This document shows positions 30,886-35,913 of a DNA stretch of 64,000 nucleotides, piece by piece. The stretch is taken from positions 1 through 64,000 of the forward strand of contig DASUYB010000121.1 in NCBI GenBank assembly GCA_036377595.1, read 5' to 3'. This DNA is from Longimicrobium sp. (GTDB lineage Bacteria > Gemmatimonadota > Gemmatimonadetes > Longimicrobiales > Longimicrobiaceae). The notes beneath the pieces were generated by a model. It saw nothing but the letters and a program-made list of their open reading frames with translations. It had not been told where the DNA came from and ran no database searches. The position numbers were made by a program, and so were the translations under genes. Every line of letters begins with the position of its first letter. The first letter of the stretch is position 1.

Positions 30886-31063
30886 CCGTATCCCCGATAT
30901 GCGCGCGTGTGGGCCGTCGGGACGTCCGGCGCCGTACCACGCGGGCCAAGAAGCTCCAAGCGGGTCACCCGCGAGACCCCGGGGAGGGCACCGCGATTGC
31001 GTGCGATACAGTCCGGGCGGCGCCTTCCGCGCCGAGGCCGGACACGGGGACAGGACTGGACGG

Positions 31064-31546
31064 ATGCGGCGGCGCGTTGCGGCGGCGTTGGCGGCGGGGT
31101 GCATCATCGGCGCGGCGGCCGGCCTGGGCGCGTTCACCTTCGTCTACGCGCGGGGCGCGTCGTACCTGACCAACGATCCCGGCGCCTGCGCCAACTGCCA
31201 CGTGATGCGCGAGCATTTCTCCGCGTGGCAGCGCTCCAGCCATCACAACGTCGCTGTGTGCAACGACTGCCACGCGCCGCACAACCTCGCGGGGAAGTAC
31301 TACACCAAGGGGCTGAACGGCTTCTGGCACTCGTTCTACTTCACCTCGGGCACCTACCCGTATCCCCTGCGGATGACCGCGCGCAACCGCCGGGTGACCG
31401 AGGGCGCCTGCCGCCACTGCCACGAGGAGATCACCGACGCCATCGAGCACGGGGCGGGCGGCCGCGCGCCCGACGGCGTCGGCGGCACCGAAGAGCGGCT
31501 GGCGTGCACGCGCTGCCATAGCGACGTGGGCCACTGGGTCCGCTGA
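31064..31546 (+). CDS. nrfH: NrfH, tetraheme quinol dehydrogenase of nitrite reductase
   Basis: The 160-residue protein has one N-terminal membrane helix and four heme sites in order: C-A-N-C-H, C-N-D-C-H, C-R-H-C-H and C-T-R-C-H. 'HVMREHFSAWQRSSHHNV' with its Met after the first heme site is characteristic of NrfH, the NapC/NirT-family subunit that takes electrons from menaquinol and passes them to NrfA. The nrfA gene follows 31 bases later. The four hemes need the Ccm system at 40806. Confidence 0.92.
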   Translation: MRRRVAAALAAGCIIGAAAGLGAFTFVYARGASYLTNDPGACANCHVMREHFSAWQRSSHHNVAVCNDCHAPHNLAGKYYTKGLNGFWHSFYFTSGTYPYPLRMTARNRRVTEGACRHCHEEITDAIEHGAGGRAPDGVGGTEERLACTRCHSDVGHWVR

Positions 31547-31577
31547 CGGGCCGCCGATCTCCCACCCGATCCGGGGC

Positions 31578-33068
31578 ATGACCATGACCGATCCGCCGCC
31601 TCCCGCTCCCGGTCCCGCGCCGCGCCGCTCGCGCTTCGCGTCCGGCCGCTGGATCGTGCTGGCCGCCGTGGCCGCCGGCCTGCTGACCGTCGGCCTGGCC
31701 GCGCTCCTGACCAACATCTTCCAGCGCAAGCAGGAGGCGCGGAACCCGTTCTACCGCGTGGTGGAGCTGAACGACACCATCACCGACCCGGCGGTGTGGG
31801 GAAAGAACTTCCCGCTGCAGTACGACGGCTACCGCCGCACGGTGGACCAGGTGCGCACCCGCTACGGCGGCAGCGAGGCCGTGCCCCGCGACCCCACGGC
31901 GGCCGATCCGCGCGCGGTGACGGCGCAGTCGCGGCTGGAGGAGGACCCCCGGCTGCGCGAGCTGTGGGCCGGCTACGCCTTCGCCCGCGACTTCCGCGAG
32001 GAGCGCGGCCACGCCTACATGCTCGAGGACCAGCTCTTCACCGAGCGCCAGCAGGCCGCGAAGCAGCCGGGGACCTGCCTGCACTGCCACGCCTCCGTCT
32101 ACGTCCCCTACAAGCGGCTGGGCGGCGGCGACCTGATCCGCGGGTTCGAGCGGATGAACCCCATGCCGTACGCCGAGGCACGGCGGTACGTCCGCCACCC
32201 CGTCTCCTGCATCGACTGCCACGACCCGGAGACGATGCAGCTGCGCGTGACGCGCCCCGGCTTCATCGAGGGGATCCGCGCCCTCAGGGCCAGCCAGGGC
32301 GTGCAGGACTACGACGTGAACACCATGGCCACGCGGCAGGAGATGCGCACCTTCGTCTGCGGCCAGTGCCACGTGGAGTACTACTTCCGCGGCCCGGAGA
32401 AGCGGCTGACCTACCCGTGGGACCGCGGCATCACGGCGGACAGCATCCTGGCGTACTACGAGGCCAACGGGCACAGGGACTGGGTGCACCAGGTGAGCGG
32501 CGCGCCGGTGCTGAAGGCGCAGCACCCCGAGTTCGAGCTGTACAACCAGGGGATCCACGCGCGCTCGGGCGTGGCGTGCGCCGACTGCCACATGCCGTAC
32601 CAGCGGGTGGGGGCGACGAAGATCAGCGACCACCACGTGCGCAGCCCGCTGCTGAACCTCAACCGCGCCTGCCAGACCTGCCACCACTTCAGCGAGGACG
32701 AGCTGCGCGAGCGGGTGCACACGATCCAGGACCGAACCTGGCAGATGCGCAACATCGCGCTGGACGCGGTCTTGGACCTCACGCGCGGGATCGCGGCGGC
32801 GCAGCGCGGGGGCGCGCCGGCCGCGCGGCTGGACGCGGCGCGACACTTTCAGCGCCGCGCGCAATTCCTGGTGGACTTCATCGAGGCGGAGAACTCGATG
32901 GGCTTCCACGCCGACCAGGAGGCCGCGCGCATCCTGGCGCTCTCGATCAACGAGTCGCGCCTGGGCCAGGCGGCGCTGCGCGGCGAGGCGGCCACCGTCA
33001 CCCGCCGTCCCGCGCCGCCGCAGCTGGTGACGCCGTCGGGGGTGACGCAGCACGGCGGCTCGCGCTGA
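31578..33068 (+). CDS. nrfA: NrfA, ammonia-forming cytochrome c nitrite reductase (five CXXCH)
   Basis: The 496-residue protein has a membrane or signal segment at residues 25-47 and five heme sites: C-L-H-C-H from residue 167, C-I-D-C-H, C-G-Q-C-H, C-A-D-C-H and C-Q-T-C-H. 'CGQCHVEYYF' with its Tyr and 'HARSGVACADCHMPY' are the NrfA active-site regions. The enzyme reduces nitrite to ammonium with six electrons. The first site, which normally is C-x-x-C-K at the catalytic heme, is C-x-x-C-H here. It is cotranscribed with nrfH and ends at a hairpin. Confidence 0.93.
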   Translation: MTMTDPPPPAPGPAPRRSRFASGRWIVLAAVAAGLLTVGLAALLTNIFQRKQEARNPFYRVVELNDTITDPAVWGKNFPLQYDGYRRTVDQVRTRYGGSEAVPRDPTAADPRAVTAQSRLEEDPRLRELWAGYAFARDFREERGHAYMLEDQLFTERQQAAKQPGTCLHCHASVYVPYKRLGGGDLIRGFERMNPMPYAEARRYVRHPVSCIDCHDPETMQLRVTRPGFIEGIRALRASQGVQDYDVNTMATRQEMRTFVCGQCHVEYYFRGPEKRLTYPWDRGITADSILAYYEANGHRDWVHQVSGAPVLKAQHPEFELYNQGIHARSGVACADCHMPYQRVGATKISDHHVRSPLLNLNRACQTCHHFSEDELRERVHTIQDRTWQMRNIALDAVLDLTRGIAAAQRGGAPAARLDAARHFQRRAQFLVDFIEAENSMGFHADQEAARILALSINESRLGQAALRGEAATVTRRPAPPQLVTPSGVTQHGGSR

Positions 33069-33131: not shown

Positions 33132-33262
33132 TGCATGCAGGTCTCCGTCTCGGCATCGTCTTCGGCACCCCCACCGCGCCGGTCCGGCTTCCCGGTTCAC
33201 GCCGAGGATTGCGCTCTCGCCGGCGCTCGCCATCTCCAGCCACGAGACGAGGACGGTTGCCC

Positions 33263-33532
33263 ATGAAGAAGCTGATGCTCGACCCGGCCGACCTGCGGGT
33301 GGAATCCTTCGCCGCCGCCGACCACCCCGCCGGGCGCGGCACCGTCGCGGCCGCCGGTGCCGTGGACGCGGCCTGGATCGGCGGCGACACGGCCAAGCCC
33401 GACTGCGACGCGTCCGGCGCCGGCAGCTGCGGCTACACCTTCTGCGGCGACGACACCTGCGACACCTGCGATTGGAACACCTACTGCGGGCACAGCTGCA
33501 TCCTCGTCTGCGACGGCGCCGCGACGGCCTGA
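33263..33532 (+). CDS. RiPP-like precursor peptide with Cys-rich core
   Basis: The 89-residue peptide begins MKKLMLDPADLRVESF, the leader pattern 'MKKL.LD...L.VESF' seen in pinensin-like and related class I lanthipeptide precursors of Bacteroidota and Longimicrobium. The C-terminal 42 residues hold eight Cys (48, 56, 61, 66, 69, 75, 79, 83) with nearby Ser and Thr. No dehydratase, cyclase, protease or exporter gene lies in the window, so any maturation enzymes would be elsewhere. A GAGGA ribosome site precedes the start. A small secreted-protein or metal-binding role is the alternative. Confidence 0.72.
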   Translation: MKKLMLDPADLRVESFAAADHPAGRGTVAAAGAVDAAWIGGDTAKPDCDASGAGSCGYTFCGDDTCDTCDWNTYCGHSCILVCDGAATA

Positions 33533-33550
33533 GTCTGTAAACAGAAAGGG

Positions 33551-33617
33551 TCTCACGCAGAGGGCGCAGAGGACGCAGAGAACTCTCTCTGCGTCCTCTG
33601 CGCCCTCTGCGTGAGAC
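33551..33617. repeat. Long hairpin repeat, family C
   Basis: TCTCACGCAGAGGGCGCAGA pairs with TCTGCGCCCTCTGCGTGAGA over at least 20 bases, with a further GGACGCAGAGA/TCTCTGCGTCC inner stem. It lies between the precursor gene and a convergent minus-strand gene and may end both transcripts. Confidence 0.88.
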
Positions 33618-33679
33618 CTGTTCTTCCCGCTTTGTTGAAGGTATTGCGGTGCTTCGGGAGGTTGGACGAGCACCTCGCC

Positions 33680-35626
33680 TCAGCTCACGACCGGCGCCGG
33701 CTGCGGGAGCTCGGCCGGCAGCGGCACCGCGACGGGCGGGGCGGCGGCGCTCGCGCAGCCGTTGCGCACCAGCGCCACGTCCGCGGAGCGGGCGTACTCG
33801 ACGTAGTCCGTGTAGAGCAGGTTGGCGACGCTCCCGTACGCGTTGGCGCCCTCGCTCGCGAGCTGCGGGCCCAGGGACGCGTTGGCCTCGCGCGAGAACG
33901 GCCACACCGCCGTGACGGGAGTGAGCGTCCACGAGAGGAGGAAGAGGTCGCACGGCGTCTTACCGTCCCGGCAGATGCCGGTGAACTCCGCGAACCGGAG
34001 AAGCTGCCCCTGCGGCACCACCACCGGACATGCGCGATTGCCGTTCCCCGGGACCAGGTCCGTCCCGGCGATCATCGTGCCCAGGTCGATGGTGTTGGAG
34101 TAGACGTCGAAGACGGTCAGGTCACCCGTGTCGGCGTCGGAGTCGCACCAGTCGCGGTACCTGCGGATGGCGCCGGCCGGGATGGTGGACGGCGGCGAGT
34201 AGGTCGAATCCTGCAGCACCACGCAGTTCCCACCCGGCTCCAGCAGCTTGGAAAGGGTGGCGGCGCCCAGGCGGGTTCCCGCCGAGGGGATGCCGGGGCG
34301 GATCCAGGTGGAGAGCGCCTCGTAGACCTGCTTGAAGAACGCGTCGTACACGCTCTGGCTGGTGAAGTCCTGGAAGTGCGAGAACTTGAGCAGCACCAGC
34401 TCGGCGTGGCCCTGCATGAATCCGGCGATCTGCGCGAGGACGTCGGACAGCGGCGGACCCCAGATGGTGACGGTGCCGTTGCCGTGGTAGAGGTAGAAGG
34501 TCCCGTCCTTGTCCGCCGGACGCAGGTCGAACCAGCGCACGCCGTCGCGAAGCTGCGAGCCGACGTCGAGGTCCTGCGTCTTCCCGGCCAGCGCGGACTC
34601 GGGATACATCGCCGCGTCGTGGCTCGCCGGGAGCACCAGCCGGTTCAGCGGCGTTGCGCCCAGCACGGCCAGGTACTGCTGCATCCAGCTCGCGCGGTCG
34701 AAGTACAGCGACGCCGTGGCGAACAGGTCGGAGGACCACTCGGAGGTGTGGACCTGCACCGCCGCGCCACCGCGGAACGCCACCGACGGAGCCACGCCGT
34801 CGTCGAAGTAGTGGCTCGGGTTCCCCGTCTGCAGCCAGTCCGTCCACGTGAGCGTGCTGCCGACGAGCTGCCCCAGCCGCTGGTACACGGAGCTCCCGCC
34901 AGACCCGGTGTGCGTCTCGACGACGAAGCCGTCGTCGCCGAGCGCCACGGTCGGCCGCGTGCCCGAGTCGTACTGCCCGTGCGCCGTCCACGTGATGGTG
35001 TTGTCGGCATTGAGCTGCCCGGCCCAGTACCACAGGTCCCCCAGGCCGGATTCGTGCACCTCCAGCACCTGTCCCGAGGCGTTGATCGCGACCGACGGGT
35101 TGTAGCCGTCGTCGGGGCCGTCGTCCGGGTTGAAGTTCACGGGCCCGTGCCCGGTCCAGTTGATCGAGTCGTCCTTCACCTGGCCCACCCAGTACCACAG
35201 CTCGCCGATGCCGGAGTCGTGCACCTCCACCACGTGCCCCGCGTTGTCGATGGCGATGCCCGGGGTGATGCCGCCGTTGTCGCCGCTGTAGCCGATCTTG
35301 TCGTGCCCGCTCCACGTCACGTCGCCGTCCTTCACCTGGCCCACCCAGTACCACAGCGTGACGTCGCCCGAGTCGTGCGCCTCCACCACCACGCCGCTGT
35401 CGTTCACGGCCACGGAGGGGTGGTGGCCGTCGTCGTCGTTGATGGTGCCGTGTCCCGTCCACGTGATCTCCGAGCCCACCACGTGGCCGCAGTTGTACCA
35501 CAGCGTGGTGAACCATCCGTCGGATTCGTGCACCTCCACCACCTGGTTGGAGCGGTTGATCGCCACGGCGGGGTCGTCGCCGGTGTCGTAGCGGTCGTTG
35601 GCGATGCCGAAGAACACGTTGTTCAT
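33680..35626 (-). CDS. PI-PLC-like protein with N-terminal repeat domain
   Basis: The 648-residue protein has two parts. Residues 1 to about 310 hold six or seven repeats of about 45 residues with 'PSVAIN.SG.VVEVHESG', 'LWYWVGQVK' and 'WTGHG', probably a propeller or lectin-like fold. The C-terminal half matches the X-domain of phosphatidylinositol-specific phospholipase C: 'LPASHDAAMY' with the first catalytic His, 'DGVRWFDLRP' and 'FYLYHGNG' with the second His. No signal peptide is seen at the start used, MNNVFFG. The protein may be released by another route or act inside the cell. Substrate is inferred from the family only. Confidence 0.78.
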   Translation of the reverse strand: MNNVFFGIANDRYDTGDDPAVAINRSNQVVEVHESDGWFTTLWYNCGHVVGSEITWTGHGTINDDDGHHPSVAVNDSGVVVEAHDSGDVTLWYWVGQVKDGDVTWSGHDKIGYSGDNGGITPGIAIDNAGHVVEVHDSGIGELWYWVGQVKDDSINWTGHGPVNFNPDDGPDDGYNPSVAINASGQVLEVHESGLGDLWYWAGQLNADNTITWTAHGQYDSGTRPTVALGDDGFVVETHTGSGGSSVYQRLGQLVGSTLTWTDWLQTGNPSHYFDDGVAPSVAFRGGAAVQVHTSEWSSDLFATASLYFDRASWMQQYLAVLGATPLNRLVLPASHDAAMYPESALAGKTQDLDVGSQLRDGVRWFDLRPADKDGTFYLYHGNGTVTIWGPPLSDVLAQIAGFMQGHAELVLLKFSHFQDFTSQSVYDAFFKQVYEALSTWIRPGIPSAGTRLGAATLSKLLEPGGNCVVLQDSTYSPPSTIPAGAIRRYRDWCDSDADTGDLTVFDVYSNTIDLGTMIAGTDLVPGNGNRACPVVVPQGQLLRFAEFTGICRDGKTPCDLFLLSWTLTPVTAVWPFSREANASLGPQLASEGANAYGSVANLLYTDYVEYARSADVALVRNGCASAAAPPVAVPLPAELPQPAPVVS

Positions 35627-35820: not shown

Positions 35821-35890
35821 AGTCTCACGCAGAGGGCGCAGAGGACGCAGAGAACTCACTCTGCGTCCTCTGCGTCCTCTGCGTGAGACT
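35821..35890. repeat. Long hairpin repeat, family C
   Basis: AGTCTCACGCAGAGGGCGCA returns as TGCGTCCTCTGCGTGAGACT, with an inner GAGGACGCAGAG/CTCTGCGTCCTC stem. It lies between two minus-strand genes. Confidence 0.88.
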
Positions 35891-35913
35891 TTCTTTTCTG
35901 GATGTCGCGATGG

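Follow-up and report, generated by a model that had tools for sequence, protein, structure and literature searches.

The stretch of DNA analysed here (the window, 64,000 nucleotides) comprises nearly the whole of contig C121, which is 64,385 bp long. It includes an nrfH-nrfA pair at 31052-33068 (+), the products of which were confirmed by Pfam as NrfH and NrfA (Cytochrom_NNT and Cytochrom_C552, respectively); the haem motifs of nrfA are apparently all CxxCH. On the same strand, a short open reading frame (ORF) starts 194 nt past the nrfA stop (33068), with the ATG at 33263 and the stop codon at 33530-33532; the encoded protein begins MKKLMLDPADLRVESF and its full translation (33263-33532, +) is MKKLMLDPADLRVESFAAADHPAGRGTVAAAGAVDAAWIGGDTAKPDCDASGAGSCGYTFCGDDTCDTCDWNTYCGHSCILVCDGAATA. 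A sequence-only reading had described a precursor gene with an eight-cysteine core and nearby serines and threonines, located after nrfHA and equipped with its own ribosome site; the coordinates and the translation agree with this description, as does the GAGGA sequence upstream of the ATG. The features of the locus are as follows.

33263..33532 (+): ORF of 89 codons and a stop codon, putative precursor of a lanthipeptide (translation, leave-one-out profile, GC3 0.97)
33263..33352 (+): leader, residues 1-30, MKKLMLDPADLRVESF then GTVAA (nearly invariant family columns)
33353..33529 (+): core region, residues 31-89, 8 Cys with Ser/Thr nearby (translation)
33249..33253 (+): Shine-Dalgarno-like GAGGA, 9 nt 5' of the ATG (sequence)
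33543..33624 (no strand): near-perfect palindrome with 39-nt arms, 11 nt past the precursor stop (repeat search)

The end of the leader was placed by the GTV-x-A/G motif that is conserved in the family described below. All eight cysteines (residues 48-83) belong to the core, nine serines and threonines occur from residue 43 onward, and the core is the presumable substrate for dehydration and cyclisation.

The openness of the frame is, by itself, weak evidence of a gene because the enclosing stop-to-stop frame extends over 661 aa in GC-rich DNA, a circumstance that renders openness meaningless and would fit a chance ORF. That explanation is, however, refuted by the score of the window peptide against a leave-one-out profile, constructed from 60 other members of the leader family of this genome with the window peptide excluded: 59.4 bits, compared with at most 10.0 bits for 2000 shuffles. 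The peptide was also the sole real match in the window, the next-best frame scoring 7.3 bits, so that the probability of a chance ORF is negligible and the leader is not a product of chance.

Comparison of the window peptide with Pfam and NCBIfam revealed no family (in NCBIfam, no match at E-values up to 10), and the peptide did not reach the curated cut-off (24 bits) of NCBIfam NF038180 (leader_pinensin), 'pinensin family lanthipeptide'. Because it falls below this cut-off, we do not file it under the pinensin family; judging by its leader sequence, it is a pinensin-like peptide and not a formal member. A single-peptide scan also yielded one locus in Ruminiclostridium, aligned with core residues 48-78 only, which we judged to reflect chance similarity between Cys-rich segments.

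When the genome itself was searched with the single peptide, 68 mostly weak matches were obtained, nearly all of them covering the leader. In an alignment of 61 members (A1), to which the window peptide belongs by its profile score and by the alignment columns, M1, L6, L11, V13, S15, F16, G26, T27 and V28 are nearly invariant and the remaining columns are mostly variable, yielding the consensus M-x-K-L-x-L-D...L-x-V-E-S-F...G-T-V. The pinensin-like character of the leader, proposed in the sequence-only reading, is borne out both by the profile score and by the match of 18 of the 61 aligned members to NF038180 at E<0.01; nine other loci in the genome pass the cut-off of that model. The exact pattern V-E/D-S/T-F...G-T-V, searched at the DNA level, produced 100 matches in the genome versus none for the reversed control. 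A profile search of the whole genome, in which 150 of 424 candidates were scored, indicated at least 150 members, with the window peptide in 23rd place among the 150 (61.4 bits). The merged profile, pattern and NF038180 matches, weaker ones counted, amount to at least 182 loci on 62 contigs, at least 172 of which come from the profile or the pattern; this total rests on three overlapping searches and should be read as a minimum. Capture-recapture, applied to two methods that are not independent, put the family size at 192. The assembly consists of 208 contigs, and its contamination was estimated at 4.83%. Thus, the earlier description of the gene as an orphan holds for its contig, in which a search for LanB and LanC detected neither, but not for the genome, with its at least 172 loci carrying this leader.

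A GGAG, GAGG or AGGA sequence is found within 20 nt upstream of 61 of the 69 family members that we read over their whole length, compared with 19% of random positions. Among 63 members with a clear GTV motif, 428 cysteines are located in the cores and two in the leaders, and in each of the 63 cores examined, serines and threonines at least equal the cysteines in number. The median core contains six cysteines, and that of the window peptide eight; the most Cys-rich precursor that we read, at L046:7298-7636, is a family member of 113 aa with 19 cysteines. Serine or threonine immediately precedes cysteine (position -1) in 43% of cases compared with 21% in shuffled cores, and is enriched at positions -5 and +3 as well, which hints at a recurring S/T-C-x-x-S/T-C spacing.

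The family is dispersed: 59 of the merged loci are solitary and only nine lie within ~13 kb of LanB or LanC. The window precursor is one of the solitary genes and has no ortholog, beyond leader-level matches, in the genomes of its taxonomic family. Its neighbour is likewise unconserved: a search of the nine other genomes of the genus at E 1e-20 yielded no nrfA, which, given this distribution, was probably acquired or often lost. For the same reason, the position of the precursor after nrfHA is probably incidental, and we dropped the idea of a functional tie between the two. The solitary, unconserved state of both genes could also mean that the window gene is a decayed or silent duplicate that has kept the leader although production or maturation of the peptide has ceased, all the more so because turnover in a large pool should generate dead copies, and part of the pool may have decayed. 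For this particular gene we consider decay unlikely: the frame is intact, preceded by the Shine-Dalgarno-like site and with a GC3 of 0.97, the eight cysteines lie near serines and threonines, and the rank in the whole-genome profile search is high.

The enzymes that could act on these precursors are encoded elsewhere in the genome. On contig C103, LanB is split into an N-terminal protein and a distinct elimination-domain protein (TIGR03891) and is accompanied by a LanC with both CHG motifs expected of the zinc ligands; at least seven members of the leader family are located directly behind this set. A second split-LanB/LanC set, more divergent than the first, is present on contig C98, where two family precursors were found ~10 kb from it. 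The LanC most closely resembles LanM cyclase domains. The LanC-domain genes found in the genome are these two stand-alone LanC and one RamC-like LanKC, a class III lanthipeptide synthetase with RamC_N, kinase and LanC domains (L048:6033-8894, contig C145). One more LanB-like gene, on contig C1, was set aside: it showed no elimination-domain match, and the contig contains no family member. The protein it encodes (L047:7643-11806) adjoins an ABC transporter and a cysteine-synthase-like gene and may serve another pathway. Searching the genome for LanB/LanC-type enzymes and for more precursors with this leader, as had been advised, thus uncovered both, the C103 and C98 sets on the one hand and well over 100 leader homologues on the other; the opposite outcome, neither enzymes nor further homologues, had been named as refuting. 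The maturation in trans that was proposed at that time is accordingly supported, albeit by inference.

Comparison of 21 genomes of the same family points in the same direction. All nine genomes with the leader motif possess a LanB C-domain gene, compared with one of the 12 motif-less genomes (G013, with divergent LanB and LanC), a co-occurrence with Fisher p = 3.4e-5 when relatedness is ignored. In two congeners, a single LanB C-domain gene faces 76 (G011) or 89 (G014) exact-motif precursors. Homologues of the C103 module (LanB_N, LanB_C and LanC), with 52-80% identity, are encoded in G001, G007, G011 and G014, and family precursors lie beside the module on C103 itself and in G001, G007 and G011; in G014, the contig stops just past LanC. 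The remaining case, G015, has LanB_C and LanC of this module only, in the same range of identity and on a 4-kb contig, yet contains only three motif precursors. Among 150 genomes of the phylum, those outside this family gave zero to two pattern matches, mostly to unlike leaders.

These observations bear on whether the peptide could instead be the product of another RiPP enzyme (the class III LanKC of C145, or one of the azole or radical-SAM type) or a disulfide-rich peptide. The presence of the RamC-like enzyme, the high density of cysteines, and the enrichment of serine and threonine directly before cysteine, a spacing impossible for a normal lanthionine, are all compatible with such a role; nevertheless, we regard it as quite improbable. 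No member of the dispersed family was found near the C145 enzyme, whereas members adjoin split LanB/LanC in four genomes, the leader motif and LanB_C co-occur in nine of nine cases, and a variable core contrasts with a conserved leader.

We therefore consider it likely that the product of the window ORF is a class I lanthipeptide precursor that belongs to a dispersed family with a pinensin-like leader and is matured in trans by LanB and LanC. Both class I enzymes are available in the genome (C103, C98), off this contig; their linkage to the precursor, which is usual in class I but not obligatory, is seen on C103 and C98 and not for the window gene, and the core of the window peptide offers the cysteines and the serines and threonines for rings. 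In the proposed pathway, the shared leader would be recognised by the split LanB, which would dehydrate serines and threonines of the core by glutamylation and subsequent elimination; LanC would then add the cysteine thiols to form (methyl)lanthionine rings, a protease would cut off the leader near the GTV-x-A/G motif, and the mature product would be exported. Well over 100 unlinked precursors would depend on one or two enzyme sets, a situation comparable to that of the prochlorosins and ProcM. By analogy with pinensin, one could guess at an antimicrobial or antifungal activity of the products.

Three known systems come closest to this one. The pinensins of Chitinophaga pinensis are class I lanthipeptides with a LanB split in two proteins, and in the family that contains them, LanC is most similar to LanM cyclase domains (PMC7268733). 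The present system shares the leader type, the split LanB (N-terminal and elimination-domain proteins) and the LanM-like LanC; by contrast, the window peptide misses NF038180 and is located far from any LanB or LanC, and the pool here comprises at least 172 members instead of one cluster. The prochlorosins and synechococsins reach per-genome maxima of 83 and 79 precursors, respectively, and these precursors (ProcA/SyncA) are scattered alone or in tandem groups and processed by one tolerant enzyme, ProcM/SyncM (PMC10783134). Here, too, a conserved leader is combined with a hypervariable core and the precursors are scattered, with a tolerant shared enzyme being implied. However, the cyanobacterial peptides are class II, with a single LanM and a Nif11-type leader that includes a GG site, whereas here both the enzymes, a split LanB and LanC, and the leader are unrelated and the pool is larger; the prochlorosin signature of LanM and a Nif11 leader with a GG site does not apply, no GG site being present before the window core. 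In Longimicrobium terrae, which is probably related to the source organism and resembles it in high GC content, a genome of ~7 Mb and lanthipeptide clusters that lack known relatives, three of the reported antiSMASH clusters contain lanthipeptides, and a dispersed precursor pool is not mentioned (PMC7291104). Our searches of the open-licence literature brought up no account of such a dispersed pinensin-type pool for this phylum, and an earlier one could exist elsewhere.

On balance, we favour the view that this is the largest known combinatorial lanthipeptide library, in which each genome encodes ~170-200 class I precursors, most of them unlinked, and one or two split LanB/LanC sets, and which arose independently of the cyanobacterial prochlorosins and, within the phylum, is confined to one family. 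The pool exceeds the highest published per-genome count that we found (83, PMC10783134) and, if all precursors share enzymes, constitutes a class I counterpart to the prochlorosins. Should this be the case, well over 100 natural substrates of one split LanB/LanC would become available for studying the tolerance of class I enzymes to variable cores, and the reasons for which bacteria maintain such libraries could be examined in a second, independent system. Only about nine of the genes lie near the enzymes, so cluster-based miners would miss most of the family.

The palindrome 3' of the precursor folds, as RNA, with -81.1 kcal/mol (z -12.9) and may terminate or stabilise the transcript. It is a dispersed repeat and is not specific to the family: copies of the CTCTGCGTCCTCTGCGCCCTCTGCGTGAGA type at 33550-33626 and 35822-35898, 92% identical, flank an ORF at 33680-35626 (-), and the palindrome is rare in the other loci that we read (one in L036, half in L046). 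A link with the precursors was rejected because the palindrome is absent from most precursor loci. The large ORF between the two copies has no Pfam match; its first third contains four imperfect 78-nt repeats (35047-35598), and one stretch may, by eye, resemble a PI-PLC-type domain.
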